The notes beneath the pieces are model-generated. The model saw only the letters and a program-made list of their open reading frames with translations, was not told the DNA's origin and searched no databases. From Desulfocarbo indianensis (GTDB lineage: Bacteria > Desulfobacterota > Desulfarculia > Desulfarculales > Desulfarculaceae): a stretch of DNA of 64,000 nucleotides. Made by a program: the position numbers and the translations under genes. Below are positions 1-50,075 of this stretch, piece by piece. The stretch is taken from contig LBMP01000009.1 in NCBI GenBank assembly GCA_001184205.1, forward strand, positions 1-64,000, read 5' to 3'. Position 1 is the stretch's first letter. Each line of letters opens with the position of its first letter.

Positions 1-1253
1 GAGGGGGCCGCCGGCGGGGCCGAGGGGGCCTCGCGGCGGGGCGCGGCCGTAGCGCCCGGCGATACAGCCGCCGCCGGAGGCGGGGCCGGCCGGGGCGGCG
101 GCGGAACCGCACCGCCCGAAGCCTGGCCGCCCAGGCCCGCGATGATATCGGCCAGGCTCAGCACCGGCTTCACCTGGGCTAGCTTGAGCAGGGTCATCTC
201 CATGACCAGGCGGGGCTGGCTGGCCCGGCGGAACATCTCCTCGGCCTGGGCCAAATGGCTAAAAATCTCGTGCAGGGTTTCCGGCGAAACCTCGGCCGCC
301 TGGCGGCGCAGCTCCTCGATCTCCTCGTTGCTCAAGCCGAACAATTCGCTGTCCGGCGGAGCCGCCTGGGCGGCGGCCAGGTTGCGGAACTGCTCCTGCA
401 GCGCGCCGTAAAAGGCCTGCATCTCTCCGCCGGCTCCGTAGACCTGCTCCACCAAATCCAGGGTGCGGGGGGCGTCGCCGGCCAGAACCGCCAGGGCGGT
501 CTGGGCCACCAGCTCGCGGTCCACCAGACCCAGAAGCTCCACCACCTCCTGGTGGGAAAGCTCCTGGCGGCCCAGGGAAAGCACCTGGTCCAAAAGGCTC
601 AAGGCGTCGCGCACGCTGCCGTCGGCCTCGCGGGCCATGAGCGCCAGGCTTTCCTTGGGCAAGCGGCAGCCCTCGGCCTCCAGCACCTTGCCCAAATGGG
701 CGGCCAGGGTCTTGGGCGGCAGGCGGCGAAAATCATAGCGCTGGCAACGGGAAAGGATGGTGAGCGGCACCTTGTGCACGTCGGTGGTGGCCAGGATGAA
801 AACCGCGTGCTCGGGCGGCTCCTCCAGGGTCTTCAACAGGGCGTTGAAGGCCGCCTTGGAGAGCATGTGCACCTCGTCCAGGATGGTTATCCGGTAGCGC
901 GCCGCCTGGGGGCGGTAGCGGATCACCTCCCTGAGTTCGCGCACGTCCTCCACCCGCGAGTTGGAGGCGGCGTCGATCTCCTGCACGTCCACCGCCCGGC
1001 CCTCGTCTATCTCCCGGCACTGGTGGCACTGGCCGCAGGGCTCGGCGGTGGGGCCGCTTTCGCAGTTCAGCGCCTTGGCCAGGATGCGGGCCACCGAGGT
1101 CTTGCCCACCCCGCGGGGACCGGTGAAGCAAAAGGCATGGGCCAGGCGCCCGCTGGCCAGGGCCCCGGCCAGGGTCTTGGTGACGTGCTCTTGACCCACC
1201 ACCTCCGTCAGGTTGGCGGGCCGGTGCTTGCGGGCGAGGACCAGATAGCTCAC
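1..1253 (-). CDS. dnaX: DNA polymerase III subunit gamma/tau (3' end outside window)
   Basis: This is the clamp-loader ATPase that loads the beta clamp at the replication fork. About 417 codons are visible. The AAA+ core carries Walker A GPRGVGKT near residues 45-52, four zinc-ligand cysteines near 64, 73, 76 and 79, Walker B DEVH near 126-129, and the RFC-box region with SRC just after. Domain III follows, and the visible end enters a Pro/Ala/Gly-rich linker typical of the tau extension. The start is GTG; GGGAG lies about 10 nt upstream and the family N-terminus (YLVLARKHRP) begins at once. No A-rich frameshift site lies in the visible part, so gamma/tau processing cannot be judged. The gene appears to have its own promoter upstream. 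Confidence 0.96.
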   Translation of the reverse strand, partial: MSYLVLARKHRPANLTEVVGQEHVTKTLAGALASGRLAHAFCFTGPRGVGKTSVARILAKALNCESGPTAEPCGQCHQCREIDEGRAVDVQEIDAASNSRVEDVRELREVIRYRPQAARYRITILDEVHMLSKAAFNALLKTLEEPPEHAVFILATTDVHKVPLTILSRCQRYDFRRLPPKTLAAHLGKVLEAEGCRLPKESLALMAREADGSVRDALSLLDQVLSLGRQELSHQEVVELLGLVDRELVAQTALAVLAGDAPRTLDLVEQVYGAGGEMQAFYGALQEQFRNLAAAQAAPPDSELFGLSNEEIEELRRQAAEVSPETLHEIFSHLAQAEEMFRRASQPRLVMEMTLLKLAQVKPVLSLADIIAGLGGQASGGAVPPPPRPAPPPAAAVSPGATAAPRREAPSAPPAAP

Positions 1254-1385
1254 CCTGACAGACTCCCGGGCTTAAACGACATTATCCCAAAGCCGCTTCT
1301 TTTTAGGCCACGGCCTGCCCGCCCCTGTTTCCCCTGGCGGGCCGACCAGCACAACATACCGTATTTGTTGAACTTTAGCATGGCT

Positions 1386-1414
1386 ACGATACCATCCGCC
1401 GCGGGGAATGTCAA
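1386..1414 (-). promoter_or_regulatory. Predicted sigma-70 promoter of dnaX
   Basis: On the minus strand TTGACA (1414-1409) is followed after exactly 17 nt by TATCGT (1391-1386). The -35 is a perfect consensus and the -10 matches four of six positions. Transcription would start near 1379, leaving a leader of about 125 nt before the dnaX GTG. That leader can form a GCCCGCC/GGCGGGC hairpin. No SRP RNA signature was seen in it. Confidence 0.55.
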
Positions 1415-1518
1415 ACCGGCCGGAAAAACGCGGAGGTTGTTCCCAATCCCCGCCAGGCCGCCGGCCAGCGGCCGCCTCCGGGAGCTTCCCGCCCGTGGCA
1501 CGGCCCCTCTCGGCGGCG

Positions 1519-1779
1519 TCAGATTTTATGACCCCAGAACCGCGACTTGGACTTTCTGAATTTAGGGCAGAAATTCCTCATATGGGATGACGAGGACGAA
1601 CACCACTGCTCGCAGCCGAAGTCCTTGCGGTCGTTGAAGACCGGCTGGCGGCAAGAGGGGCAGGTCCTTCTGATTTCATCCTTGAAAAACTCGACCAGGC
1701 GTCCGCAATGAGGGCATCTGACGTCGAAAATGGCGTCGAATCCCCAAGCTTCCGTATTGTTGCCCGTGCACTTGCGCAT
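1519..1779 (-). CDS. Small double-CxxC zinc-ribbon protein
   Basis: An 86-residue protein of unknown role. It has two close cysteine pairs, CPHCG and CPSCR, about 15 residues apart, which is a classical zinc-ribbon arrangement, followed by CEQWC. That order (ribbon, then C-x2-W-C) resembles small deltaproteobacterial zinc-ribbon proteins that also occur at the ends of HD-domain proteins, from memory of that family. The C-terminus is basic (KFRKSKSRF). ATG is preceded by AGGGA at a usable distance. It sits alone upstream of dnaX, on the same strand and separated by the dnaX promoter, so it is probably not co-transcribed with it. Confidence 0.7.
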   Translation of the reverse strand: MRKCTGNNTEAWGFDAIFDVRCPHCGRLVEFFKDEIRRTCPSCRQPVFNDRKDFGCEQWCSSSSSHMRNFCPKFRKSKSRFWGHKI

Positions 1780-1865
1780 GGCCGGTCCCTGGTTGCCTTA
1801 TATGGCCAACGATACCACGCTTTGGGGGCTTTGGCCCGGCCAAAGGGCGGAACGCGCCCCGGCTT

Positions 1866-2585
1866 TTACCTGTCCACCCGCATGACCACCAGGTCGCGGC
1901 CCACGCCTCTTTTCCTGAGGCCGGCCAGGAGGGCCTTGGCCCGGCTGTAGCCGGTGCAGCACCCCACCCAGACCCGGTGCCAGACCTTGCCGCTTAAATT
2001 GTGGGTCTTGACCATGGCCGGGTAGCCCAGCTTGGCCAGCTTGGCCTTGTCGGCCTGGGCGTGGCGCATTTCCAAGTTGGAGGAATACAGCACGGCGTAG
2101 GGCCCGGTAACGGCCCCGCCCTTGGCGTAGGCTTTGCCCCCGGCCTTGGCGGAGGCCCCTCGCGGCTTGCCGGCGGGCCGCCCCTCCAAACCGGCCAGGG
2201 CGGCGGTCATCTCCGCTATGGCGCGGTCGCGGTCATAATCCATGCGCACCGGCCCCTTGCGGGCCAGCACGATGCCCCTCTCCCAGGTCTGGCGCGCCTG
2301 GTCGGTCTGGCCCAGGTCGCGATAGGCCAAGCCCAGTTGATACCAGGCCGAGTAATTATATTGATCCTCCGCCAGGGCCTTTTCCAGTTCGGCCGCCGCC
2401 TGGCTCAGTTGGCCCTCGGCGCGGTAGGACATGGCCAGATTGAAATGCTGGTAACCGCTCAGCGCGGTCTGCTTGCCCACCCCGCCGGGCGACAGCCAGG
2501 CGCAAGCCGGCGTCAGGGCCAGGGCCACAAGAGCCAACAGGGCTCCCCCCAGCCGGCCGGCCCTGGCGAATGGTTTGCGGTTCAT
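1866..2585 (-). CDS. Lipoprotein with TPR repeats and a C-terminal SPOR-like domain
   Basis: The 239-residue product begins with a signal peptide ending in a lipobox (Cys near residue 28). Residues about 45-115 form two to three TPR helices-turn-helices (HFNLAMSYRAEGQ, AWYQLGLAYRDLGQ). After a low-complexity Ala/Gly/Lys linker, the last 75 residues (YAVLYSSN...HRVWVGCC...ARALL-like) have the spacing of a SPOR domain, which binds denuded peptidoglycan glycans. The role is probably in the periplasm or at the cell-division envelope. ATG at 2585 was chosen over an in-frame TTG two codons earlier because GGGAGAG is then well placed. It is monocistronic as far as can be seen. Confidence 0.75.
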   Translation of the reverse strand: MNRKPFARAGRLGGALLALVALALTPACAWLSPGGVGKQTALSGYQHFNLAMSYRAEGQLSQAAAELEKALAEDQYNYSAWYQLGLAYRDLGQTDQARQTWERGIVLARKGPVRMDYDRDRAIAEMTAALAGLEGRPAGKPRGASAKAGGKAYAKGGAVTGPYAVLYSSNLEMRHAQADKAKLAKLGYPAMVKTHNLSGKVWHRVWVGCCTGYSRAKALLAGLRKRGVGRDLVVMRVDR

Positions 2586-2747
2586 GGTCAATCTCTCCCA
2601 ACAGGCCAGAATTATTAACCGGGCAGCATCAGCTTAACATGGCGGGCGAGATGGAACCAAGGGGGAGTTTGGGGGGCGCGCCCCGCGGCGGCCCGGCCTG
2701 GGCTCAGGGGAGCGCGCAACGCCCTGAAGCCGGCGGACGGCTTGGGG

Positions 2748-2890
2748 GATCAACGTCCTCGCGGGGGTCCGGCGGCGATAACGCCCGCCGGCCTCCCAAG
2801 GCGATGGGCTTTTTCTGATCAACGGCCTCAAGGGGAGCCTGGATAGGCAACAGCCCGCCGGCCTCCCAAGGCTAGCGGCCCTGTTTGCTT
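2748..2890. repeat. Imperfect ~70-bp tandem repeat (two copies plus a partial third)
   Basis: The 20-mer GCCCGCCGGCCTCCCAAGGC occurs at 2783 and again at 2853. The unit start GATCAACG is repeated at 2748 and 2817, with a degenerate third start near 2886. The tract lies in the 350-bp gap upstream of the TPR/SPOR lipoprotein, between it and the 3' end of the next minus-strand gene. Nothing else is evident in this gap. Confidence 0.6.
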
Positions 2891-2935
2891 GATGGCCGCC
2901 AGGGGAGGGCCCTCATGCGGGCGACCGGCCGGGGC

Positions 2936-3823
2936 TTATTCGCCTTCCGGGTCCGCCGCCGGGGTTTCGGGCTTTTTGCCGTTGGGCCTCAGATGCACCA
3001 ACTGGCCGCCGCCGCCGGGAGCCGGGCGGGCGTTGCGCGCGGCGCGGCCGGGGCCCAGGCGTTCCCTGGCCCAGCGCTTCTGCCGGCGCTGCACCTCGCC
3101 CGGATCATAAAAGCGCATCCAGTCTTCCTGATAATGCCATATCTCGGGCTGGGGGCTGTGAAAGGCCCAATCCACCTCCTCCGGGTCGAAACCCATGGAG
3201 TACCAGCCTTCCAGATCGCCGAAGCCCATATCCTCGCGGGCGAACTTTATCAGCGCCATGCGGTAGTTTTCGCGGCGGAAATCCAGGAGAATCTGACCGG
3301 CGAGCTGGCGCAGCAGCCGTTCCTCGCTCTCGTCCATGAAGCGTTCGCCGATGATGCGGAACACGTGCTCGGTGGATTCGGCATGGGAAAGGCTCACCGC
3401 GGCCAGGCCCTTCAAGGCCAGGTCCCGCGCCGACCAGCCGGCCGCCACGTCGCGGGCCACGGCGGTCAGGCCGGGGATCATGGCCGGCCCCACCTTGCCC
3501 ATGATGGCCGGCAGCAATTCGGTCACCCAGTCGCAGTCAAAGGCGTCGGCCCAGCGCAGGGCGCTTAACAGGGGCAAAACCACCTCTTCCCCGCCGCGGT
3601 AACCCAATAGATAGGTGGCATGCACCACGGCCCACCATTCGGGCAGTTCGGCCAGCCAGGATTGCTTGTCGCTGGCCACCTGCGCCAAAAGGGGCTGCAT
3701 GCTGTCCCGCCGGGCCATTTCCAGGGCCGCGGCCAACTCCAGCCTATCCTCCGCCATGAACAGGAGGTCGGCCAGGCGCTCATCATCAAGCGATGCGTAG
3801 TCAAACGGTTGCATGTCCGCCAT
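2936..3823 (-). CDS. Helical-repeat (DUF1186/HEAT-like) protein of unknown function
   Basis: A 295-residue soluble protein without signal peptide or transmembrane segment. Residues 1-190 are a run of amphipathic helices with the look of HEAT-type repeats (AVVHATYLLGYRGGEEVVLPLLSA and similar), and the middle is acidic and Trp-rich. The pattern resembles the DUF1186 family, in which a helical-repeat body is sometimes followed by a SEC-C zinc motif. Here the C-terminus is instead a basic, Pro/Gly-rich tail without cysteines. The start is uncertain by three codons (a second ATG lies at 3814). No functional partner is adjacent. Coding is strongly supported; the family assignment is tentative. Confidence 0.6.
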   Translation of the reverse strand: MADMQPFDYASLDDERLADLLFMAEDRLELAAALEMARRDSMQPLLAQVASDKQSWLAELPEWWAVVHATYLLGYRGGEEVVLPLLSALRWADAFDCDWVTELLPAIMGKVGPAMIPGLTAVARDVAAGWSARDLALKGLAAVSLSHAESTEHVFRIIGERFMDESEERLLRQLAGQILLDFRRENYRMALIKFAREDMGFGDLEGWYSMGFDPEEVDWAFHSPQPEIWHYQEDWMRFYDPGEVQRRQKRWARERLGPGRAARNARPAPGGGGQLVHLRPNGKKPETPAADPEGE

Positions 3824-4120
3824 CTCTTTGTTGGAAAAAGGGCAAACGCAGCCTTGCCTTAGCTGCCTGCCCCCCTGTAGTCACTATACCCCAGCGCCAG
3901 GGCGCTTACAACAAGGCGACCAGGACTGGCCTTTAATATCCTTGGGCACAATTATTTGTTATATTTTAACAATAACTCGACGGTCCCCAAAGGGCACCCC
4001 ATAAAATCCGGCGGCCGCCACGCGCGCCCCCGAGGGGACGGGCAGCCGCCTTGCGGGAGCGGTTTTTTATGGTAAACCCATTTGGAAGCGGGATCACAAG
4101 CGCCTTTCAAGGAGGGGTTG

Positions 4121-4378
4121 ATGGGCAAGTGGTTGCTTTGCATGCTGTTGCCGGCCGCGTTTTTCGCCGCGACCTCCCTGGTCTGGGCCGGCCAAGCCTC
4201 CTCCCTGGACCCCGACCTGATCCGCCAAGAGCTGGAACGGCTCCGCGTCCTTTACAGCGATGAACACCCTGACGTAATCTTATTGCAACGCAAGCTGGAA
4301 AAAGCCGAGGAACTGAAACGCCTGCGCCAAGGCCCGCCGAAGAAGAGCCCCGATCAGGAACCTTCCAGCGCGCCTTGA
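4121..4378 (+). CDS. Small exported coiled-coil protein resembling a Wzz/GumC segment
   Basis: An 85-residue product. The N-terminal 20 residues form a signal peptide (LLCMLLPAAFFAATSLVWA). The mature part is one amphipathic, charged helix, IRQELERLRVLYSDEHPDV and onward, ending in a disordered Lys/Pro tail. The L-x2-R-x2-Y-x3-HPDV pattern is what is seen in the periplasmic coiled coil of polysaccharide co-polymerases (Wzz/GumC), but no membrane anchors or kinase domain are present. ATG at 4121 was chosen because GGAGGGG lies just upstream, giving a better start than ATG 4082. It lies 17 bp before the thiamine-binding-type gene, so the two are likely co-transcribed. Function unknown. Confidence 0.65.
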   Translation: MGKWLLCMLLPAAFFAATSLVWAGQASSLDPDLIRQELERLRVLYSDEHPDVILLQRKLEKAEELKRLRQGPPKKSPDQEPSSAP

Positions 4379-4395
4379 GGCCGGGGAGAGAAAGC

Positions 4396-4692
4396 ATGGC
4401 CATAATACAATTTTCCGTGGTGCCCCTGGGCACCGCCGGCACCAGCCTCTCGCCCTATGTGGCCCAGGTGCACAAGGTATTGCAAGCCAGCGGAGTGAAA
4501 CACACCCTCACTCCCATGGGCACGGTCCTGGAGGGCCCCCTGCCTGAGCTTTTGGCGGTGATCCAAAAATGCCATGAGGCGCCTTTCATGCAAGGCGCCC
4601 AGCGGGTCATGACCCTGATAAACATTGACGACCGGCGCGACAAGCAAGCCACCGCCGCCGGCAAGATGAAAAGCGTTGCAGACAAGCTATAG
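4396..4692 (+). CDS. MTH1187/YkoF-type thiamine-binding family protein
   Basis: A 98-residue protein matching the small ferredoxin-fold family once called DUF77. It shows the typical IQFSVVPLGT N-terminus, the SPYVAQVHKVL helix, the TPMGTVLEG turn and the C-terminal VMTLINIDDRRD strand. Family members bind thiamine or related hydroxymethylpyrimidine compounds in the cytoplasm and are thought to salvage or buffer them. No thiamine biosynthesis gene or TPP riboswitch is visible nearby, so the substrate is inferred only from the family. GGGGAGAG precedes the ATG. It lies between a small exported peptide gene and an M48 peptidase gene on the same strand. Confidence 0.85.
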   Translation: MAIIQFSVVPLGTAGTSLSPYVAQVHKVLQASGVKHTLTPMGTVLEGPLPELLAVIQKCHEAPFMQGAQRVMTLINIDDRRDKQATAAGKMKSVADKL

Positions 4693-4767
4693 TCGAGCCG
4701 GGGAAACCGGCCCTCACCCCCCCGGCCAAGACGCCGGCCCCCGGCCGTAACGAGGGACGTTGCCGTC

Positions 4768-6078
4768 ATGAAATTGCCCGAACCGATGAAAAACAAGCTC
4801 GTTGGATTGATTATTCTACTGTGTCTGGGTTTGCTGGCCGGCTGCGCGGTGAACCCGGTCACCGGCCAGCAGGAAATCGTACTCATGAGCGAGCCGCAAG
4901 AGCTGGCCATGGGCGCGCGCTATTATCCCCAAACCACCCAGATCAACAACGGCCTGGTGCCCCACGACCAGGGCCTGCAAAACTACGTCAGCCGGGTGGG
5001 GCACAAACTGGCCAGGGTGAGCCACCGTCCCGATATTCCCTGGGAGTTCAACGTGGTCAATTCGGACCAGGTGAACGCCTTCGCCCTGCCGGGCGGCAAG
5101 ATATCGCTCACCAGGGGGCTCATCGCCAACATGCGGAGCGAGGACGAAATGGCCTCGGTGCTGGCCCATGAAATAGGCCACGTCACCGCGCGTCATTCCG
5201 TGGCCCAGTACACCCGCGGCGTTTTCGTCTCCATGGCCGTGGCCGGGGCGGGGCTGGCCCTCTCCAACAGCGATTACAAGGAGGTGGGCGCCATGGCCGC
5301 CGGCGTGGCGGGGAGCCTGCTCATGCTCAGCTATTCGCGCGATCAGGAGCGCCAGGCCGACCAGCTGGGCTATGAATACATGGTCAACGCCGGCTACAAC
5401 CCGGTGGGGCAAGTCAAGACCTTCGAGATGTTCCAGCGGCTCCATAAAAGCGAGCCCGGCTTTATCGCGGCCATGCTCTCCAGCCACCCCCTGACCGATG
5501 AGCGCGTGCAAACCGCCCGCGACCGGGTGGCGGCGACCTCGCGCGCCATCGCCGGCCAGCCCTTGCAAACCGCCGGCTTCCAAAAGGCCCTGGCCGCGCA
5601 AAAACAGCGCCGGCCGGCCTACGAGGCCGAGGCCAAGGGGGACGCCCTGGCCAAGAAAAAGAACTACGCGGCCGCGGCCAAGGAATACCGCCGGGCGGCC
5701 GATCTCTACGGCGGGGACGGGCTGTTCGCCACCAAGCTGGCCCTGGCCCAATACCAGATGAAGAACTACGACCAGGCCATGCGCGCCTCGGCCGAGGGCG
5801 CTGAAGCCAGCCCGGGGGTCTACCTGCCCAATTTCGTGGCCGGGGCCATCCACTACAAGATGAAGGATTTCAATAAAGCCAAGGACTACCTGGGCCGGGC
5901 CGACAAGCTCCTGCCCGATCAGCCGCGCAATCAATTGCTGCTGGCGGCCAGCTACGAGCAAAGCGGCCAGCGCAGGACGGCCGCCTCCTATTACCGGCGC
6001 TTGGTCAACCAGGCTCCCAAAAGCCAGGAAGCCGCGGCCGCGGCCTATCGCCTGCGCCAGATGGGCTATAAGCGATGA
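4768..6078 (+). CDS. M48 zinc metallopeptidase lipoprotein with C-terminal TPRs (BepA-like)
   Basis: A 436-residue periplasmic protease. A lipoprotein signal ends at LLAGC (Cys near residue 26). The peptidase domain holds the zinc motif HEIGH near 134-138, with a downstream Glu in DQERQADQLG as probable third ligand. The last ~150 residues are TPR-like repeats (AAKEYRRAADLYGGDG and similar). This is the architecture of BepA/YfgC, which assembles or degrades outer-membrane proteins such as LptD and BamA; that role is inferred. Two in-frame ATGs are possible (4768 and 4786); GAGGG suits the first. It is the last gene of the plus-strand trio and is followed by an inverted-repeat element 12 bp after its stop. 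Confidence 0.88.
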   Translation: MKLPEPMKNKLVGLIILLCLGLLAGCAVNPVTGQQEIVLMSEPQELAMGARYYPQTTQINNGLVPHDQGLQNYVSRVGHKLARVSHRPDIPWEFNVVNSDQVNAFALPGGKISLTRGLIANMRSEDEMASVLAHEIGHVTARHSVAQYTRGVFVSMAVAGAGLALSNSDYKEVGAMAAGVAGSLLMLSYSRDQERQADQLGYEYMVNAGYNPVGQVKTFEMFQRLHKSEPGFIAAMLSSHPLTDERVQTARDRVAATSRAIAGQPLQTAGFQKALAAQKQRRPAYEAEAKGDALAKKKNYAAAAKEYRRAADLYGGDGLFATKLALAQYQMKNYDQAMRASAEGAEASPGVYLPNFVAGAIHYKMKDFNKAKDYLGRADKLLPDQPRNQLLLAASYEQSGQRRTAASYYRRLVNQAPKSQEAAAAAYRLRQMGYKR

Positions 6079-6090
6079 GCCGCCGGGCTG

Positions 6091-6348
6091 GCCCGCCTAT
6101 TTCATGAAGGTCGGGCAGTCGTCAGCGGATTTGTCGAGCATGGCGGGCTGATTTAAGAACGAGCCTCCTAGGCAACGATCGCCATTTGCGACCCGGACCG
6201 GCACCGCCAGGGGCCGGCAATCAAGGCGTCTGGCAAGCGAGGGCCGCAGGCGTAGCTTAAGCTACGTCGAGGCCCGAGCGCAGCCAGCAACGCAGTGTGC
6301 CGGTCCCTGGCGCAGCCGGACGCCCCGGCCTTCGTGAAATAGGCGGGC
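6091..6348. mobile_element. 258-bp inverted-repeat (MITE-like) element
   Basis: The left end GCCCGCCTATTTCATGAAGG (6091-6110) is repeated in inverted orientation at the right end (6329-6348) with one mismatch (C for T), so the ends can pair over about 20 bp. Inside, a perfect 16-bp palindrome CGTAGCTTAAGCTACG (6251-6266) is flanked by further imperfect complementary arms. It encodes no protein. The right end abuts the stop codon of the universal stress protein gene. The design (long hairpin, AT-poor, intergenic, just after a stop codon) fits a non-autonomous repeat or REP-like element. No target-site duplication was confirmed, and no second copy was seen in this window. Confidence 0.6.
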
Positions 6349-6806
6349 TAAGCCACCACCCACACGCAGCAATCGGTGGCCTGGCGCACCACGGTATTGG
6401 ACACGCTGCCGAAAAGAAACTCCTCGGCCTTGCTCAGCCCCCGGCGGCCCACCACCACGGTGCCGTAGCCGCCTTGGCGCTGCATTTCCATGATGACCTC
6501 GCCCACGCCGCGGCTGCCGTCGGCCTCCACCAATTCCGAGGTCACGTTCTCCGCCGCCAGACGGGCCTCCACCAGAATGCGGTGGGCCTCCAGCAGGCAC
6601 TCCTCCAGCGCGATGCGCGCCTCCACGTCCCTGGCCTTGATCTCCTCGGCCCGGCTGGGGTCGTCCTGGGGAGAGGGCAGGTGCACGGCCATGAGCCGCA
6701 CCTTGCAGTTGCTGGAGCCGCCCAGCACCGCGGCCAGGTAGCGCACCGCGTTGAGTCCGTGGTCGCTGCCGTCCACGCCCACCAGCACACGGTTCCACAG
6801 TATCAT
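6348..6806 (-). CDS. Universal stress protein (UspA family)
   Basis: A 152-residue single-domain Usp. It opens with VLVGVDGSDHGLNAVRYLA, the conserved Asp-containing strand of the fold, and has the late nucleotide-binding motif VVVGRRGLSKAEEFLFGSVS (G-x2-G-x9-GS type), so ATP or AMP binding is likely. It starts at ATG 6806 and overlaps the stop of the kinase-like gene by 4 bp (ATGA), a sign of translational coupling. It is therefore the last gene of an operon with a RACE-type activator and a kinase-like protein. Its stop lies inside the last base of the inverted-repeat element. Confidence 0.9.
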   Translation of the reverse strand: MILWNRVLVGVDGSDHGLNAVRYLAAVLGGSSNCKVRLMAVHLPSPQDDPSRAEEIKARDVEARIALEECLLEAHRILVEARLAAENVTSELVEADGSRGVGEVIMEMQRQGGYGTVVVGRRGLSKAEEFLFGSVSNTVVRQATDCCVWVVA

Positions 6807-7789
6807 GCCGCATCCTCCTCCGGCCGGGGCAGGGCCGCCATGGCCGGCTTGAGATCCGCCAACAATTCCTCCACCCGCTCGTAAAACACGTTGGAGGAAG
6901 CCGCGAAATGCATGAGCACCCGGTTCAGCTCCTCGGGCAGATGGGGATATATCTTTTTCAGATTGAAGACCCGGTTGGGAATGATCAGGGAAAGATCGCC
7001 GGTGTCCAGCTTTTGCAAGACCTCCGGCTGCTGGCGCTGCACCTCCTGCAAGGTCGGTATGCCCTTGCCCACGGCGTAGCAAAGCACGTTGCCCAGCCCG
7101 AAAAGGTCCAGGCCGTAGGGGTTCTCGCGGAACTCGAAATTGTAGTCGAAGTCGATCCAGCGCATGAGCCCGCTGTCGGCGCAGTCGAAAAGATGGTCGC
7201 GCCGGATGTCGCCGTGGCGCTGGCCGTTTTTATGCAGGAAACCGATGCCCTCCACCGCGGGCAAAAGGCGGTCCAACACCCCGCGCAGGTGCCGGCTATA
7301 GTATTCCCGGTGGTCGCCGCCCAGCTTGGCCAGGTTGCGCTCGAAGGGCCCCCCCCGCACCAGATCCAGCACCCGCACCAGGTTGCCCTTGACGTCCTTG
7401 AGGCACTGGCCGTGCATGAAATGGGGATGGTCCTTGACCAAATCCAGGATGCGGGCCTCCTTGGCCGGCGAGCGGTAGCAGCGCACATAGAGCTTGCCCA
7501 CCGGCAGGTCGAACTCCTCGTAGAAAACCAGCTTGATGATCTTGGGCTCGCCGGTCTCCCATTCCACCGCCCGCTTGACCCAATGCTTGGGCTCCTCGTC
7601 CAGGCCGAAGCGCCCCTCGTAGGTCACGCCCTTGATGAGATAGCGCCGCCCCTCCAGCTCCAGGACATCGCCCAGCATCAGCTCCATGAACTGGCTGGTG
7701 TCGCTCACCAGGCGCACCCGGTCCAGCTTGCGGTCCAAAAGCTCCTGGGCCCTGGCCTTCAGTTCGGGTGCTTGCCGGTGCTCAGCCAT
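6803..7789 (-). CDS. Protein kinase-like / aminoglycoside-phosphotransferase-fold protein
   Basis: A 328-residue cytoplasmic protein. A nucleotide-binding N-lobe is suggested by a Lys-containing strand (EPKIIKLVFYEEFD). A catalytic loop is visible as RHGDIRRDHLFD, followed by WIDFDYNFEF, which matches the HGD...DFD arrangement of lipopolysaccharide and antibiotic kinases and of divergent Ser/Thr kinases. The Asn usually found five residues after the catalytic Asp seems replaced (RRDH), so activity is uncertain. The start at 7789 overlaps the end of the RACE gene by 8 bp; an upstream start (7819) would extend deeper into that gene and is less likely. A substrate cannot be assigned. A shared operon with a RACE protein and a Usp suggests regulation of a stress-linked or corrinoid-dependent process. 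Confidence 0.7.
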   Translation of the reverse strand: MAEHRQAPELKARAQELLDRKLDRVRLVSDTSQFMELMLGDVLELEGRRYLIKGVTYEGRFGLDEEPKHWVKRAVEWETGEPKIIKLVFYEEFDLPVGKLYVRCYRSPAKEARILDLVKDHPHFMHGQCLKDVKGNLVRVLDLVRGGPFERNLAKLGGDHREYYSRHLRGVLDRLLPAVEGIGFLHKNGQRHGDIRRDHLFDCADSGLMRWIDFDYNFEFRENPYGLDLFGLGNVLCYAVGKGIPTLQEVQRQQPEVLQKLDTGDLSLIIPNRVFNLKKIYPHLPEELNRVLMHFAASSNVFYERVEELLADLKPAMAALPRPEEDAA

Positions 7790-9383
7790 GGAACACCGGC
7801 ACGCTGGGGAAGCGCCCATGATCGGTGTGGGGGATGAAGCGCGCGGCGGAAAAGCGGTTCATCAGCGCCTGGTTCACGTTCAGCTCCAGGTAAGTGAGCT
7901 TGTCGGCCACAGCCTCCACCTGGGGCCGGGTCTCCGGCTCCAGGAGCAGGCGGCGGCAGCCGGCCAGGGAGGAGTTGCCCAGGGGCACGTAACGCTCCCG
8001 GGGCAGGTCGGGCAGCATGCCCAGGGTGATGGCGGTAGCGGGGTCTATTACGTTGCCGAAAGCCCCGGCCACGTAGAAGGCGTCCAGGTCCTCGAACTCC
8101 AGCCCCACCTCCAAAAGCACGGTGCGCAGGATGGTGTACATGGCGGCCTTGGAGCGCAAGAGGATGTCTATCTCCACCTCGTCCACCACGATGGCCCGCC
8201 CGTCGGCGCTTTCCCCGGCCGGCGCCACCACGTAGCCCAGGCCCTCGTCGGTGCGCACTATGCGGGGATGGTCCTCCACCAGGAACTTGCCGCGCATGTC
8301 CATGACCCTGGTGAGATATAGCTGGGCCAAGAGCTGCAAAAGCCCGGAGCCGCACAATCCCTTGGGGCGAGCCGCGCCGCCGTCGGCTTGGGGAATGATC
8401 TTCAGTTCCGGCTCCAGGCTCTGGGGGTCGATGCGGACGCCCTCGATGGCTCCCGGCTGGGCCAGGACGCCCATCTTGGCCACCCCGCTCTCCAGGGCCG
8501 GGCCGGCCGCGCCGGCGCAGGCCAAAAGCCAATCCCGGTTGCCCACCACCACCTCGGCGTTGGTGCCCACGTCCACCAGGATGGCGGTTTTCTCGCGCTG
8601 GTGCATGCCGGCGGCCACGATGCCCGCCACCAGATCGCCGCCGAAATAAGAGCCCACGTTGGGCAGACACCAGCCCACCGCCTGGGGGGCCAGGGGCAAA
8701 CCCAAATCAACGGTATAGAACGGCGCGGGCCGGTTGACCACCGGGATATAGGGCTCCCGCGGGATGGATTGCACGTCCAGGTCGAGGAAGAAATGGGTCA
8801 TGGTGGTGTTGCCCGCGGCCACCAGGCCTACTACCTGGGAAGCACCGCGGCCGGCCCGGCCGCACATCTCTTCCACCAAATCGGCCGCGGCCTTCACCAG
8901 CATCCGGTGCAGGCGCTGCATGTCCTGGGGCTTGGCGGCCGCCCAGATGCGGGAGAGGATGTCCGCGCCGTACTCGGCCTGGGGGTTCAGACAGGTGCCC
9001 TTGGCCAGTTCATCGCCCGTGGCCAGATCATGCAGGCCGGCTTGCAAATGGGTGGAGCCGATGTCCAGGGCCACGCCCAGGCCCTCCGCGCCCCACAGGG
9101 AGTCCGGCGCCTCGGCGGCGCGCCCGGCCCAGGATTCCTCCGGCGGCCGGGCGCCGGCGTCGCCGGGCTCCACCTCCACCAGCACGCCTTGGGCCAGGGT
9201 GGCGGTGACCCGGTAGCCGGCCTGGCGCATGGTCCTGGCGAAGCGGCCGGCGCGGCCCACCGGGGCCACAGGCCAGGTTCCCGTAACCCGGCGCAGGGCC
9301 TTGGCCAGCCGATCGATATCGGCGGTATTATCCTTCAGACTGGGCGGCTCCAGTTCCAGATAGTGCTTGTGCAAAAGAGCCAT
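7782..9383 (-). CDS. RACE-type activator (ASKHA/DUF4445), lacking the ferredoxin domain
   Basis: A 533-residue protein of the reductive activators of corrinoid-dependent enzymes (RamA/RACo group), which use ATP to return inactive Co(II) corrinoid to Co(I). The N-terminal ~75 residues match the linker region (HYLELEPPSLKDNTADIDRL). Then come an ASKHA ATPase fold with phosphate-1 ALDIGST near residue 105, LVDVGTNAEVV, and the late LCGSGLLQLLAQL and VAGAFGNVIDPATA motifs. The N-terminal plant-type [2Fe-2S] domain normally present is missing: no C-x4-C-x2-C is seen before the linker. Electrons must then come from another protein. ATG follows GAGGAAG. It is the first gene of an operon with a kinase-like and a Usp gene; no corrinoid methyltransferase lies in the window. 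Confidence 0.88.
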   Translation of the reverse strand: MALLHKHYLELEPPSLKDNTADIDRLAKALRRVTGTWPVAPVGRAGRFARTMRQAGYRVTATLAQGVLVEVEPGDAGARPPEESWAGRAAEAPDSLWGAEGLGVALDIGSTHLQAGLHDLATGDELAKGTCLNPQAEYGADILSRIWAAAKPQDMQRLHRMLVKAAADLVEEMCGRAGRGASQVVGLVAAGNTTMTHFFLDLDVQSIPREPYIPVVNRPAPFYTVDLGLPLAPQAVGWCLPNVGSYFGGDLVAGIVAAGMHQREKTAILVDVGTNAEVVVGNRDWLLACAGAAGPALESGVAKMGVLAQPGAIEGVRIDPQSLEPELKIIPQADGGAARPKGLCGSGLLQLLAQLYLTRVMDMRGKFLVEDHPRIVRTDEGLGYVVAPAGESADGRAIVVDEVEIDILLRSKAAMYTILRTVLLEVGLEFEDLDAFYVAGAFGNVIDPATAITLGMLPDLPRERYVPLGNSSLAGCRRLLLEPETRPQVEAVADKLTYLELNVNQALMNRFSAARFIPHTDHGRFPSVPVFHG

Positions 9384-41325: not shown

Positions 41326-41354
41326 TTGACAGGTCGGGATTTATATTTTTTAAT
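41326..41354 (+). promoter_or_regulatory. Strong sigma-70 promoter of the arsR-dsrE2 cassette
   Basis: TTGACA (41326-41331) and TTTAAT (41349-41354) lie 17 nt apart, with an AT-rich spacer unlike the GC-rich surroundings. The -35 is a perfect consensus and the -10 has one mismatch. Transcription is expected to start near 41361, inside the adjacent palindrome. Confidence 0.75.
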
Positions 41355-41366
41355 ATATTTAAATAT
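41355..41366 (+). promoter_or_regulatory. Probable ArsR operator overlapping the start of transcription
   Basis: ATATTTAAATAT is a perfect 12-bp palindrome located directly after the -10 box and before the ArsR coding start at 41383. Short AT-rich palindromes at this place are the usual binding sites of ArsR-type repressors, so negative autoregulation is inferred. Confidence 0.6.
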
Positions 41367-41382
41367 GCAGAGGTTTGCATGT

Positions 41383-41685
41383 ATGCGGCTGGATAAAGAC
41401 TTTCTCAATTTCGCGGCGGACATGCTCAGGGTGATGGGCCACCCTTTGCGCATAAGAATCGCGCAGTTCCTGGAAAGCGGCGAGCAGAAGGTGGGCGATA
41501 TCGCCAGCGCCGTGGGCGCCAGCCAATCGGCCACCTCCCAGCACCTGAAGGCCATGCGCGTGCGGGGCCTGCTGAATTCCCGGCGCGAGGCCACCAACGT
41601 GTATTACTCCATCGCCAGGCAGGAGATATACAGGATCATCCAATGCATCCGCGAGGGGCAGGCCCAGACCGCCCGCCACGGCTAA
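41383..41685 (+). CDS. ArsR-family transcriptional regulator
   Basis: A 100-residue winged-helix repressor. The fold is clear: FAADMLRVMGHPLRIRIAQFL, then the recognition helix KVGDIASAVGASQSATSQHLKAMRVRGLL, cited in parts, and the beta-wing RREATNVYYSIA. No CxC metal motif is present in helix alpha3 and no cysteine occurs after the start, which argues against a metal sensor; members of this subgroup can sense sulfide or redox state by other means. ATG 41383 has AGAGG about 9 nt upstream. It heads the cassette and is the likely controller of the dsrE2, fadL and thioredoxin genes. Confidence 0.9.
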   Translation: MRLDKDFLNFAADMLRVMGHPLRIRIAQFLESGEQKVGDIASAVGASQSATSQHLKAMRVRGLLNSRREATNVYYSIARQEIYRIIQCIREGQAQTARHG

Positions 41686-41712
41686 CCCATTGTTTATATT
41701 GGAGGGCGTTTC

Positions 41713-42276
41713 ATGGATCAGGAGATTCAAGCCTACATCGACCAGAAAGTTCAGGAGGCCTTGGAAAGCCAGCTGGACCAGCGCATAAAAGCCGCCCTCA
41801 AGGCCCAGGGCAATGACAGCCGCGCGGCCATCGTGGCCTCCAAGGGCTCTTTGGATATGGCCTATCCGCCCCTGATCCTGGCCTCCACCTGCGCGGCCCT
41901 GGACATTGATTGCCAAGTGTTCTTCACCTTTTACGGCCTGGACATCATAAACCGGAAAAAATACCGCAGCCTCAAGGTGCCGCCCATCGCCAACCCGGCC
42001 ATGCCGGTGCCCATGCCCAACATCCTGGGCATGCTGCCGGGCATGACCGCCATGGCCACCATGATGATGAACAAATGGATGAAGGACCAGAACGTGCCCA
42101 GCATCCCCGAACTCATCGATACCTGCAAGGAATTCGACGTGAAGCTCATCGGCTGCCAGATGACCATGGACGTGATGGGGGTCAAGAAGGAAGACCTGAT
42201 CGACGGCATCGAGGTGGGCGGCGCGGCCTACTTCCTGGAATACGCCTCGCGCAGCAACATAACCTTGTTCATTTAG
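41713..42276 (+). CDS. DsrE/DsrF/DrsH-like (DsrE2-type) sulfur-relay protein
   Basis: A 187-residue protein. A charged N-terminal helix is followed by RAAIVASKGSLDMAYPPLILA, an intact DsrE strand-helix, then CAALDIDCQVFFTFYGLDI with two cysteines, a hydrophobic Met/Pro-rich loop (PMPNILGMLPGMTAMATMMM), and SIPELIDTCKEFDVKLIGCQMTMDVMG with two more cysteines (cited in parts). DsrE2 proteins carry persulfide on a cysteine in sulfur oxidation or polysulfide reduction; the cysteine CxM in GCQM is the likely one. GGAGG precedes the ATG. The Met-rich loop may insert at or bind a membrane. Confidence 0.9.
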   Translation: MDQEIQAYIDQKVQEALESQLDQRIKAALKAQGNDSRAAIVASKGSLDMAYPPLILASTCAALDIDCQVFFTFYGLDIINRKKYRSLKVPPIANPAMPVPMPNILGMLPGMTAMATMMMNKWMKDQNVPSIPELIDTCKEFDVKLIGCQMTMDVMGVKKEDLIDGIEVGGAAYFLEYASRSNITLFI

Positions 42277-42289
42277 CTTGCCCGCCGGC

Positions 42290-42312
42290 CTTCCCGGATT
42301 TTCTCCGGGAAG
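42290..42312 (+). other. Stem-loop after the dsrE2-like gene
   Basis: CTTCCCGGA (42290-42298) pairs perfectly with TCCGGGAAG (42304-42312) across a 5-nt loop, 14 bp after the stop codon. No T run follows, so it is probably not a full terminator. It may stabilise the arsR-dsrE2 message and lower expression of the downstream channel gene. The remaining 150 bp to the fadL-like gene shows only its ribosome-binding site. Confidence 0.55.
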
Positions 42313-42460
42313 CGGTGCCTTCATAAAACCCGCGGCCCGCATTCTTGCGCCGATGGCTGGTCGACCTCTTCTCCTGCGCCGCGGGCGGGCCTCAAGCCCC
42401 GTCCGGCGGGGCCGCCGGGCGGGACACTGGCAACCAACCGTTTTAAAAGGGGAAAGGAAC

Positions 42461-43711
42461 ATGCGTAGGGCAAGCGTATGGTTATTGGCGGCAGCGCTCC
42501 TGGCCTGTCCCGCCGCCGCTCTGGCCACCAACGGCATGAACATGATCGGCACCGGCGCGGTGGCCTCGGGCATGGGCGGGGCGGACGCGGCGGTGCCGGC
42601 GGGCTGCACCGCCATCGCCGGCAACCCGGCCCAATTGGCCACCACCTGCAACCGGGTGGTTTCGGCGGGCACGGCGCTTTTGATGCCCAAAATGGACGTG
42701 CAGATGCCGGGCTCCGGCGAGGTGGGCAATGAAAACCAGATATTCCCCCTGCCCTTTTTCGGCTATGCCCAGCGCATCGGGGTGAGCCCCTGGAGCATCG
42801 GCCTGGGCGTGTTCGCCCAGGGCGGCATGGGCGTCGATTTCCGGGAGGCGCCGGCCGGGCCCGGCGCCAAGGACGACCTCTACTCCCAGGTGGCCTTCAT
42901 GCGCCTGGCCCCCACCGTGGCCTACAACGTGAACGACAAATTCACCCTGGGCGCCAGCCTGTTCGCGGGCTACGCCACGGTGGATTACGAGTTTTTCCCC
43001 AACCTGCCCATGGGCCAGAGCGTAACCGGCTTAAGCTCCTACACCCTGGCCGGCCGGCTGGGCTTCAGCTATCAGCTCAACGAAAAATGGGCCATCGGCG
43101 GCACCTACACCACCAAGAGCGCCCTGGATTTCGACGATGGCGAGATGAAGGCCAATTTCGGCCCCCTGGGCGTGGTGACCTACAAGGACGTTTCCATGGA
43201 GGACTTCACCTGGCCCCAGCAGCTGGAGTTCGGCGTTTCCTTCCGGCCGGCCGCCAAATGGCTGCTGGCCTTTGACATAAGCTGGATCAACTGGTCCAAC
43301 GCCATCGAAACGGTGAAGGTCAAGGCCAAGAACCCCAACGTTGCCCTGCCGCCCCAGTATCAAAGCCTGGAAGTGCCCTTTATCATGGACTGGAAGGACC
43401 AATGGGTCTTCGCCCTGGGCGCCCAATACGAGATCAACGCCAACTGGACCGTGCGGGCCGGCTACAACTACGGCAAGAGCCCCATACCGGATGACACCGT
43501 GAATCCCCTGTTCCCGGCCATCGTGGAGCACCACCTCACCGCCGGCTTCACTTTCTCCCATGGCGATTTCGACATCGACTTCGCCTATGAGCACGGCTTC
43601 GAGCACAGCCAGAAGAACACCGGCGCGCCTTCGACCACCAACCCCTTCGCCGGCACCGAGGTTTCCCACTATCAGGACACCCTGCATTTCATGGTTTCCT
43701 ACCGCTTCTAG
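42461..43711 (+). CDS. FadL/OmpP1-family outer-membrane channel
   Basis: A 416-residue outer-membrane beta-barrel. The signal peptide is VWLLAAALLACPAAALA, with mature TNGMNMIGTGAVASGMGGAD, the typical FadL N-terminal hatch. Alternating strands (LAGRLGFSYQLNEKWAIGGTY, WTVRAGYNYGKS) continue to the C-terminal aromatic residue F of the last strand (LHFMVSYRF), as required by the BAM machine. FadL channels take up hydrophobic compounds by lateral diffusion: fatty acids, toluene, possibly elemental sulfur. GGGGAAAGG precedes the ATG. Preceded by the dsrE2-like gene, followed 17 bp on by the thioredoxin-like pair. Confidence 0.93.
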   Translation: MRRASVWLLAAALLACPAAALATNGMNMIGTGAVASGMGGADAAVPAGCTAIAGNPAQLATTCNRVVSAGTALLMPKMDVQMPGSGEVGNENQIFPLPFFGYAQRIGVSPWSIGLGVFAQGGMGVDFREAPAGPGAKDDLYSQVAFMRLAPTVAYNVNDKFTLGASLFAGYATVDYEFFPNLPMGQSVTGLSSYTLAGRLGFSYQLNEKWAIGGTYTTKSALDFDDGEMKANFGPLGVVTYKDVSMEDFTWPQQLEFGVSFRPAAKWLLAFDISWINWSNAIETVKVKAKNPNVALPPQYQSLEVPFIMDWKDQWVFALGAQYEINANWTVRAGYNYGKSPIPDDTVNPLFPAIVEHHLTAGFTFSHGDFDIDFAYEHGFEHSQKNTGAPSTTNPFAGTEVSHYQDTLHFMVSYRF

Positions 43712-43727
43712 GGAGGAGTGAAAAGTC

Positions 43728-44216
43728 ATGGGCGTTAAACACGCGACATCCATCCTGGCGGCGGCGCTGCTCCTGGCCCTGTTTGCGGCTTTGGCCGCGG
43801 ACCTGAGCCAAGCCGTGGCCCAAGCCTCCCCGGAGGTGCACTGGCAAAGCCTGGAACGGGCCCAGGCCTTACAAAAGGCCGAAGGCAAGCCCATGGTGGT
43901 GTTTTTCCATCTCTCCTATTGCTGGCGCTGCAAGGAGATGAAGCGCAAGGTCTACGCCGACGCCCGGGTCAGCGACCGCCTCAACCGCCAATTCATCCCG
44001 GCCGAGGTGGATTTGGCCCAGCGGGAAGAGCTGGGCAGGAGCCTGGGGGTGGACTATGTGCCCACCCACCTGTTTCTGGCCCCGGACGGCCACGAGGTTC
44101 TCCGGGAAAAGGGCGTTATCGCGCTGGAGGATTATCTTTTGATGCTGGATTACCTGGCCGGCGGGCATTACGCCGCCATGAGCTTTCAGGCCTATACCGA
44201 GAGCCGCCGCAAATGA
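43728..44216 (+). CDS. Periplasmic thioredoxin-like protein 1 (CWRC)
   Basis: A 162-residue exported thioredoxin-fold protein. A signal peptide (ATSILAAALLLALFAALAA) is followed by MVVFFHLSYCWRCKEMKR, whose CxxC lies near residue 65, FIPAEVDLAQREELGRSLGV and the cis-proline region YVPTHLFLAPDG. This is the Thioredoxin_7/DUF255-like type, shown by the extra C-terminal helix with the GGHY...SFQAY motif. Expected to act as a thiol-disulfide or persulfide reductase in the periplasm. It shares the C-terminal motif with the following gene, with which it overlaps by 4 bp. Confidence 0.9.
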   Translation: MGVKHATSILAAALLLALFAALAADLSQAVAQASPEVHWQSLERAQALQKAEGKPMVVFFHLSYCWRCKEMKRKVYADARVSDRLNRQFIPAEVDLAQREELGRSLGVDYVPTHLFLAPDGHEVLREKGVIALEDYLLMLDYLAGGHYAAMSFQAYTESRRK

Positions 44217-44707
44217 CGGCGGGAAGCATCATGCCCGGCGCGCCCCGGGTCTCGCGGCCCTGGGCGCGCTTTCTTCTTTGCCTGCTCTTGCTTTTGATCT
44301 GCCTGCCGGCCGCGGCCGCCGGGGCGGAGCAGATAAAGTGGCTGACCTACGCGCAAACCCTGGAGCTGGCCCCCAGCGCGGCCAAGCCGGTCTTCATTTA
44401 TTTCCGGGCGCCCTGGTGCCATTTCTGCAAGAAGATGCAGAGCCAGGTCTTTCCCGAGGCCCAGGTGAGCGCCGCCCTCAACCGCGATTTCCTGGCGGTG
44501 GACGTGGACGTGACCCAGGAGCGCCGGGTGGCCGAGGCGTATCAGGTCAGTTACCTGCCCACCTCCATTTTTCTCTCGCCCCAGGGCAAGCCGGTGCTGG
44601 TCTTGCGGGGCTTTCTGCCGGCGGAGCGCCTGCTGAGCGCCCTGGCCTACATGGCCGGGGGTCATTATAAAAAAAAGAGCTTCCAGGATTACGAAAGCCA
44701 GCCCTGA
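44213..44707 (+). CDS. Periplasmic thioredoxin-like protein 2 (CHFC)
   Basis: A 164-residue paralogue of the preceding protein. The N-terminal signal peptide is ARFLLCLLLLLICLPAAAAG; then KPVFIYFRAPWCHFCKKMQ, with CxxC near residue 75, LAVDVDVTQERR, YLPTSIFLSPQGKPVLVLRG and the same GGHY...SFQDY end. The mature fold is thioredoxin with an active site CHFC, close to that of disulfide reductases. ATG 44213 overlaps the upstream stop (ATGA); ATG 44231 is possible. The pair lies at the end of the ArsR cassette. Confidence 0.9.
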   Translation: MTAGSIMPGAPRVSRPWARFLLCLLLLLICLPAAAAGAEQIKWLTYAQTLELAPSAAKPVFIYFRAPWCHFCKKMQSQVFPEAQVSAALNRDFLAVDVDVTQERRVAEAYQVSYLPTSIFLSPQGKPVLVLRGFLPAERLLSALAYMAGGHYKKKSFQDYESQP

Positions 44708-48803: not shown

Positions 48804-50075
48804 CTACAGGCCGAACTCGGCCAGGTCGGGCCCCAGGTACACCCTTTCGTTCTCGCCCAGGATGCCCATGGCCAGGCAGATCAGGGTCCACAAATGGGTG
48901 ACGTAAAAGCCGCCTTCGTAATGCTCGGACAGATCGTGTATTTGGGCATGGCAGTTGTGGCAGGGCACCAGCACGTAGCCCGCTCCGGTGGCCATGATCT
49001 GGTCAAACTTCTTGCGGCCGTAGGCCTGCCGCTCCTCGGTGAAACCGGCCTGCAAGGACCCGCCGCCGCCGCCGCAACAATAGTTCTGCGACTTGTTGGG
49101 GGTCACGTCGATGAAGTTTTCCTCGCCCACCACGGTCTTGATCACGAAACGCAGATCGTCGGCGAAATCGTCGCCCAGGGATTTACGCACCACGTTGCAG
49201 GGGTCCTGGGTGGTGAACTTGATCTTCAGGTCCTTGTTCCAATCGGAATTGACCTGAAGCTTGCCCTCCCTGATCCACTGGGCGTAGAGTTGCACGATGC
49301 TGACCAGTTTGAACTTGTGGGGTATGTTGAATTTCCGCAGGCCGCCCCACAGCGCGTAAAAGGAATGGCCGCATTCGGTGTTCACCAGGTACTCGCAGCC
49401 CAGCTTGTCGATATGCTCGGCCTGGGCGCGTATTATCTTTTCCCAGTTTTCGTCGTCGGCCAGGAACATGCAGTAGTTTTCACCGCCCCACATCTGCGAG
49501 TAGTAGGTCCAGTCCGCGCCGACCTTGTACAGAATCTTCCAGAGGGGCACCAGCTCATCGGGCTCGGTGACCGGCTCGCGGGAATTCTGGTTGAGCGCGT
49601 ATTTGGCTCCTTCTTTGTCTATGTAGACCTTGAAGTCCTCGAAGCCCTCCTGCTCGGTCAATTCCTCGGCCACGTCCTCCACGGTGAACTTGAAGTCGTC
49701 GAAGGGCACGCCCATGGCCCCGCCGTTGGACTTGACGTGGAGATCGCAGGAGCCCAGGATTCCCTTGGGCCTCTCCGACCGCGGCCAATGGGAGCGGAAG
49801 GTGAATATGAGCTTGGGTATGTCCACGTTCATGGGACAGGCGTCCTGGCAGCGCTTGCACATGGTGCAGACCCACACCCAGGGGTCTTTCTCCAACTCGT
49901 CGTAAAGGCCCAGCGCCACCTTGCGGATGAACTTCCTGGGGTCCATGTCCATGAGGCCGGTGGCCGGGCAGCCGCCGGAGCAGGTGCCGCAGGTCAGACA
50001 AAGATTCAGATTGACGCCTTCCAGCTCCGCCAGGGCGTCCTGGGGCAGCTTTTTCGGCGTGATGGTTTGAGCCAT
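48804..50075 (-). CDS. HdrC-HdrB-like fusion (HdrD-type) iron-sulfur protein
   Basis: A 423-residue soluble protein. The N-terminus holds two [4Fe-4S] ferredoxin motifs, CLTCGTCSGGCP near 26 and CTMCKRCQDACP near 71, as in HdrC/GlpC. The C-terminal part resembles HdrB: one complete CCG signature is visible (DPCN ... NYCCGGGGGS ... PCHNCH), and a second, earlier one is degenerate (EYLVNTECGH). In methanogens HdrB's CCG cysteines hold two noncubane [4Fe-4S] clusters that reduce CoM-S-S-CoB; in sulfate reducers similar proteins serve other disulfides or quinone/DsrC acceptors. ATG has GGAGG upstream. It ends the Hdr operon. Confidence 0.88.
   Translation of the reverse strand: MAQTITPKKLPQDALAELEGVNLNLCLTCGTCSGGCPATGLMDMDPRKFIRKVALGLYDELEKDPWVWVCTMCKRCQDACPMNVDIPKLIFTFRSHWPRSERPKGILGSCDLHVKSNGGAMGVPFDDFKFTVEDVAEELTEQEGFEDFKVYIDKEGAKYALNQNSREPVTEPDELVPLWKILYKVGADWTYYSQMWGGENYCMFLADDENWEKIIRAQAEHIDKLGCEYLVNTECGHSFYALWGGLRKFNIPHKFKLVSIVQLYAQWIREGKLQVNSDWNKDLKIKFTTQDPCNVVRKSLGDDFADDLRFVIKTVVGEENFIDVTPNKSQNYCCGGGGGSLQAGFTEERQAYGRKKFDQIMATGAGYVLVPCHNCHAQIHDLSEHYEGGFYVTHLWTLICLAMGILGENERVYLGPDLAEFGL

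Follow-up and report, generated by a model that had tools for sequence, protein, structure and literature searches.

Recurrent linkage of a FadL-type outer-membrane channel to DsrE2-family proteins suggests a candidate envelope module for zero-valent sulfur in Desulfocarbo indianensis

Which described systems come closest to a gene cassette that joins an outer-membrane channel to a sulfur-carrier-like protein? We address this question for five plus-strand genes (41365/41383–44707) in a 64,000-nt stretch, hereafter the window, of the 5.1-Mb draft genome of Desulfocarbo indianensis (G000), which encode, in this order, an ArsR regulator, a DsrE2-family protein, a FadL-family channel, and two thioredoxin-like proteins (TrxA and TrxB). 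All five proteins fall into established families. The FadL channels characterized so far serve uptake, through lateral diffusion; the genes of the TodX, TbuX, CymD, and XylN channels sit with aromatic catabolism, and we know of no sulfur linkage for Escherichia coli FadL. DsrE2 and TusA are trafficking proteins found with sHdr–LbpA or rDsr, and the PF13686 family of DsrE2 occurs elsewhere beside TusA, LbpA-like (GCV_H), HdrC-like, and FCSD-like genes. In Desulfobacterota, the YTD cluster of sulfur disproportionators (YedE-TusA-DsrE-chp) links sulfur carriers to a sulfur transporter (PMC12998232, PMC13047784). Earlier proposals for sulfur uptake named OprD-like porins or outer-membrane thiols, with the proteins stated as unconfirmed; the OprD-like porins were proposed for S0 uptake in Sulfurovum, where S0-transport membrane proteins were described as not yet confirmed (PMC10045233). 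We propose, with about even confidence, that the cassette, under ArsR control, forms an envelope module handling zero-valent sulfur of low solubility (S8, a long polysulfane, or an organic polysulfane). The link between FadL and sulfur handling is itself well supported, because FadL–DsrE2 linkage recurs beside genes for TusA, DsrMK-like proteins, DsrC, and sulfide:quinone oxidoreductase (SQR).

The cassette differs from the YTD cluster, which has the inner-membrane protein YedE and neither an outer-membrane channel nor thioredoxins, and we rejected that assignment because the cassette contains no YedE or TusA. Its second protein resembles the DsrE2/TusA trafficking proteins in its PF13686 membership and catalytic-type cysteine, but it has no TusA in the cassette, is joined to an outer-membrane channel, and scores below the DsrE2 equivalog cut-off. 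The Sulfurovum porins are, like FadL, outer-membrane barrels proposed for zero-valent sulfur; unlike it, they belong to another barrel family and were proposed from expression rather than operon linkage. The Tso operon of three selenoproteins (TsoA, TsoB, and TsoC, with the regulator TsoR) shares with the cassette an ArsR regulator and DsbD/thioredoxin-like parts of weak similarity. To our knowledge neither FadL nor DsrE2 belongs to it, and we rejected this assignment as well, on profile scores (TsoR 35 vs. 115 bits; TsoB 63 vs. 805 bits).

Is the five-gene arrangement more than a local accident? The gene order and coordinates in a prior sequence-only reading of the window all proved real, and the arrangement is not a chance one, because it is conserved in other genomes. 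All five genes occur in the same order in G003, G005, G007, G008, and G009 of the sister genus, and in G006 the set is split over two contigs; identities to the window proteins are roughly 65–73% for ArsR, DsrE2, and FadL. Most of these loci carry DsrE-like, LUD, and DsbA-like genes directly upstream of the cassette. Two other genomes of the same genus (G004 and G010) retain only ArsR–DsrE2, followed by an amidase gene. Conserved co-occurrence, which the sequence-only reading had named as a check on its proposal, thus holds for the whole cassette in the sister genus, and the confinement to a single genome that it would have taken as a refutation is not what we found: FadL–DsrE2 linkage extends to Nitrospirota and, within the phylum, to five families or more. 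The host is very probably a sulfate reducer, since DsrAB is found in G000; the same genome has one DsbD and one FadL, the cassette copy.

How far does the linkage between FadL and sulfur genes reach beyond the cassette? Across 395 genomes sampled from the phylum, we located 111 FadL-family and 90 DsrE2-family matches. Twelve of the 111 FadL genes have a DsrE2 gene no more than 5 kb away, compared with 0.13 expected (Poisson P about 3e-20), a statistic that favors near relatives, because the query FadL is itself DsrE2-linked, and that counts families which are not fully independent. Five of these pairs are the orthologous cassette, and the other seven are spread over five families. One operon type reads MarR-DsrE2-TusA-DsrM like-DsrK like-FadL (L122, L181, L183, and L184); its variants include a locus in which no DsrE2 was found (L216) and FadL-DsrK at contig edges (L187, L188, and L189), and the same set also occurs without FadL (L191 and L195). 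A second type, seen in a single case (L179), reads ArsR-FadL-type III SQR-DsrC/TusE-DsrE2, with profile scores of 596 bits for SQR (cut-off 525) and 90 bits for DsrC/TusE (cut-off 53.5). Plain FadL–DsrE2 pairs are found in L117/L197 and L182. The Nitrospirota linkage, which rests on DsrE2-anchored loci only, comprises DsrE2-FadL (L047), DsrE2-TusA-DUF302-FadL (L061), and DsrE2-DUF302-FadL (L073). What survives most firmly of the sulfur-uptake interpretation first drawn from the sequence is therefore the association of FadL with sulfur genes, by recurrent linkage across families; the remaining steps we infer.

The L179 operon bears on an explanation in which sulfur flows outward instead of inward, the channel releasing excess periplasmic zero-valent sulfur or hydrophobic polysulfane and so protecting the cell. 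FadL stands there beside a type III SQR, whose enzyme class produces zero-valent sulfur, and ArsR-type control would suit a detoxification response. However, the known members of the channel family act in uptake, the cassette itself has no SQR, and a cytoplasmic DsrE2 would suit import better, so we consider export improbable.

Several other loci deserve mention. SCP2 (sterol-carrier-like) domain genes, which encode a hydrophobic-ligand-binding fold, lie beside DsrE2–FadL pairs in two phyla (L047 1–555; L117 3353–5436). In genus g5 (L119 4219–5526 and its relatives L034, L116, L118, and L124), a MarR-linked DsrE2 gene is followed not by FadL but by P0006, a protein without a Pfam match and unrelated to FadL that reads as a putative signal-bearing outer-membrane barrel; a search for a solved structural relative of it found none. 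The L185 row (1216–8694) consists of an MduS-type methyltransferase, an ArsR, a FadL (44% identical), a redoxin-like protein, and a GlcD-HdrD-like FAD/iron–sulfur (FeS) fusion, and in L180 FadL is likewise paired with a GlcD-HdrD-like FAD/FeS fusion.

The channel itself (42461–43711, plus strand, 416 amino acids; signal peptide cleavage predicted at about ALA/TNGMN) matches the FadL/OmpP1/TodX family PF03349 at 135.7 bits (gathering cut-off 29.7) and reaches 54 bits against the long-chain fatty-acid FadL equivalog PRK10716 (cut-off 585). It shares its fold and hatch motif with E. coli FadL but falls short of that equivalog. Its AlphaFold model (predicted local distance difference test score 85.7) is a FadL barrel with an N-terminal hatch carrying an invariant NPA motif; the best Protein Data Bank matches are TbuX, CymD, TodX, and FadL, and the model is nearest to channels for small hydrophobic molecules. 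The TodX/TbuX/CymD/XylN channels provide the best sequence and structure matches and have the same Pfam family, barrel fold, and NPA-bearing hatch. They differ in that identity to XylN is 26%, they lack a cysteine pair in the hatch, and their genes accompany aromatic catabolism, whereas the window gene accompanies a sulfur carrier.

Because FadL is akin to hydrocarbon channels, aromatic uptake stays the main rival reading. FadL would then import hydrophobic organics (aromatics, fatty acids, or alkanes) as a carbon source, and DsrE2 and the thioredoxins would serve some other end, for instance the folding of FadL or a response to thiol stress. The closest solved relatives (CymD, TbuX, and TodX) agree with this, as does the fact that the cassette FadL is the only one found in G000. 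A maximum-likelihood FadL tree of 48 rows (phylum FadLs, Nitrospirota, plasmid FadLs, hydrocarbon channels, and two long rows) places the window type, clade A, beside the hydrocarbon channels, so that it may be sister to XylN/CymD/TbuX, with weak support (86/87). In the same tree, however, the phylum's conventional FadLs group on a separate branch (100/100) of 16 rows, none of them sulfur-linked in our sample, while 10 of the 12 rows in clade A (98/98) and all nine in clade B (99/96) are sulfur-linked. Moreover, no catabolic gene adjoins the cassette, and other families show this FadL lineage in linkage with SQR, DsrC, TusA, DsrMK-like, and DsrE2 genes. We therefore regard organic uptake as unlikely, although it is the alternative to which we give the most weight.

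Besides clades A and B, the 32 rows outside the conventional branch comprise unassigned plasmid FadLs with two linked rows from Nitrospirota among them, as well as hydrocarbon channels and the two long rows. Because the linked rows L047, L061, and L073 were found via DsrE2, they do not count as independent support for linkage. The plasmid FadLs served as controls and, among the matches listed, are only hydrocarbon-type or unassigned, at no more than 28% identity. The sulfur-linked label requires five changes on the tree, compared with 15.9 in shuffles; thus, the association with sulfur had more than one origin or has been lost in part.

Within the hatch, Cys49 (42605–42607) and Cys63 (42647–42649) flank the NPA motif (42623–42631) on the plus strand. 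The pair is invariant in cassette-type FadLs (7/7) and is also present in L134. The DsrMK-linked FadLs of clade B carry a different pair just after NPA (CFGPYC-type; 6/6), and no hatch pair was seen in the conventional FadLs, CymD, TbuX, or XylN of the alignment.

The two genes that follow encode TrxA (43728–44216, plus strand; CWRC at 43920–43931) and TrxB (44213–44707, plus strand; CHFC at 44417–44428), and they overlap by four bases (ATGA). Profile matches above cut-off (PF13899, PF13098, and PF00085), an invariant CxxC, and N-terminal Sec signals read from the sequence bear out the suggestion that they are periplasmic thioredoxin-like proteins. Within the order, close relatives of the pair, as two stand-alone genes, are restricted to the seven genomes with the FadL cassette, where they always adjoin that FadL. 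This restriction to the Cys49/Cys63 channel would fit a disulfide substrate, and the pair might then be devoted to maturation or redox gating of the hatch disulfide and never contact the transported substrate. Against this, L134/L186 has the cysteine pair with no Trx pair seen among its sampled neighbors, and two different thioredoxins seem excessive for a single disulfide; of the alternatives weighed here, we think this one the least probable.

A TrxB relative in G020 (L215, about 6197–6610) reads TGA, in frame, at the position of the first CxxC cysteine (ADY-TGA-IYC), which makes it a possible selenoprotein thioredoxin of the UxxC type from the order of the host. Similar one-TGA matches are present in G012, G013, and G016.

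The DsrE2-family protein (41713–42276, plus strand, 187 amino acids), identified by profile match, alignment, and model, scores 174.8 bits against PF13686 (gathering cut-off 25) and 188.3 bits against the NCBIfam DsrE2 equivalog NF047629 (cut-off 210). The label DsrE2-type given to it at first sight therefore stands at the level of the family and not at that of the equivalog. Its four cysteines were counted correctly (C60, C67, C138, and C148). Cys148 (42154–42156) is present in 125 of 127 homologues, and C60 and C67 occur hardly anywhere outside the ArsR-linked group. The structure model has a DsrE fold, matching the DsrE/DsrF proteins 3pnx, 2qs7, and 2hy5, and places Cys148 at the end of strand 144–148, so that the conserved active-type cysteine and fold of the DsrE family are both present. 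A Met-rich segment (97–107) is poorly predicted and precedes a helix (109–125); DsrE2 of the Allochromatium type has two transmembrane helices (PMC12998232). G000 has a second DsrE2-family gene (L107 6016–6552; G000:C1:818818–819348), 63% identical, without FadL and near a chemoreceptor gene.

Between the DsrE2 and FadL genes lies an intercistronic gap of 184 bases (42277–42460, plus strand) that folds into strong GC hairpins; thus, equal expression of the five genes is not required. The gap measures 149–163 bases in five orthologous loci (L027, L028, L110, L113, and L114), with comparable hairpins. Raw folding energies in all six loci range from -62 to -85 kcal/mol for 149–184 bases, and each has a long GC hairpin, without a T run, directly 3' of the dsrE2 stop. 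The folded gap is perhaps an mRNA processing or stabilizing element.

A putative promoter on the plus strand (41326–41354) precedes the cassette, with a perfect -35 (TTGACA, 41326–41331), a 17-nt spacer, and a -10-like TTTAAT (41349–41354). It is followed by an AT-rich, operator-like perfect palindrome, ATATTTAAATAT (41355–41366, no strand), which has a single exact match in the window, where 0.12 are expected at one mismatch or fewer. Orthologous arsR genes are likewise preceded by AT-rich palindromes of this kind. A strong promoter and operator had been claimed here. The -35 and the palindrome uphold part of that claim, but strong overstates it, because the -10 is partial, lacking the consensus A, and a consensus promoter scan accepted no promoter at the cassette start.

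The ArsR/SmtB-family repressor (41383–41685, plus strand; PF01022, 45 bits) has an alternative in-frame start at 41365. The start at 41383 is likelier, because AGAGG lies upstream (41369–41373), orthologues align from 41383, and 41365 leaves almost no leader. The regulator is not cysteine-free, as the sequence-only reading had it: Cys94 (numbered from 41365; codon 41644–41646) lies in the last, C-terminal helix, and 15 of 17 aligned ArsRs share it, including ArsRs near other DsrE2 genes. The window protein shares the ArsR fold with the persulfide-sensing repressors SqrR and BigR and aligns to SqrR over residues 16–97, and its sister-genus counterparts have one helix-2 cysteine, a residue off the SqrR position. 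We rejected membership in that group on cysteine positions and the BigR equivalog score (44.5 vs. 155 bits).

A score above the general metalloregulator model is in keeping with a different explanation, a module for metal(loid) or electrophile stress in which ArsR would sense a thiophilic metal(loid), the Trx pair and DsrE2 would repair or trap it, and FadL would move a hydrophobic adduct. Also on its side are the weak resemblance that TrxA/TrxB bear to the selenoprotein TsoB and ArsR to TsoR, the ArsR-FadL-redoxin locus of L185 beside an MduS-type methyltransferase, and the G020 TrxB relative with selenocysteine inferred at its TGA. However, the TsoR and TsoB scores are far from their cut-offs, no metal exporter, reductase, or arsenic gene was seen in the cassettes, and the neighborhoods are dominated by sulfur genes. 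An arsenic methylation reading of L185 was rejected, its methyltransferase being MduS-type and not ArsM (23 vs. 263 bits). A stress module seems to us quite unlikely, ranking below organic uptake and above sulfur export.

How might the zero-valent sulfur module that we prefer operate? Hydrophobic sulfur species would pass the outer membrane through the FadL-type barrel, where the hatch cysteines Cys49 and Cys63 could open or hold S-S chains or act as a redox gate. In the periplasm, TrxA and TrxB, plausibly kept reduced by the single DsbD, would reduce the S-S bonds that arrive or return the hatch cysteines to their starting state. Sulfane sulfur would then cross the inner membrane by a carrier outside the cassette, be carried in the cytoplasm by Cys148 of the DsrE2-family protein in persulfide form, and be passed to the sulfite-reduction machinery (DsrC/DsrAB). 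ArsR would leave the promoter upon encountering a thiol-reactive sulfur species or another ligand.

A number of observations weigh against this proposal. In both sequence and fold, the window FadL is nearest to monoaromatic-hydrocarbon channels. The cassette holds no inner-membrane sulfur transporter, and the YedE-family gene of G000 is on another contig (C301). G001, the single close relative from the host's own genus (71% complete), is without this FadL. The close relatives L133/L185 and L134/L186 have no adjoining DsrE2, and L134/L186 has no sulfur gene among its sampled neighbors. The DsrE2-linked FadLs L015, L122, L047, L135, L136, L145, L061, and L073 lack the hatch cysteines, which are therefore not required for linkage. 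The window ArsR has no helix-2 cysteine and so departs from the two-cysteine arrangement (helix 2 and last helix) of SqrR and BigR. Finally, the substrate and the direction of flow, as well as reduction, hand-over to DsrE2, and the inducer, are deduced rather than observed directly. A broader extension, in which two Desulfobacterota FadL lineages and their Nitrospirota relatives are dedicated importers of zero-valent sulfur, with independent hatch cysteine pairs that bind or open chains and a private Trx pair that drives the reaction here, is possible but doubtful.

The cassette is flanked on one side by a divergent rpsB and on the other by a minus-strand gene for a small membrane protein and then an FtsK-like gene, names that come from reading the sequence. 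Farther along the window (48804–50000, minus strand) is a protein resembling a DsrK-like FeS/CCG protein (100 bits).

The exact set of genes had been put forward as one not known as a described system, and in the open-access literature (subscription papers were not covered) we likewise found no published description of it. That literature yielded no locus joining FadL/TodX with DsrE, TusA, DsrC, or SQR and no FadL channel proposed for sulfur, elemental or polysulfide; the mentions of FadL in work on sulfur bacteria are unrelated. The entry of poorly soluble elemental sulfur into Gram-negative cells is an open question, and the cassette offers a testable candidate for its outer-membrane step. 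A FadL lineage tied to SQR, DsrC, TusA, DsrMK-like, and DsrE2 genes, with cysteines in its hatch, supplies named genes and residues for such testing. If the proposal is true, the substrates of FadL channels would extend past carbon compounds, and sulfate reducers would hold regulated machinery for zero-valent sulfur.

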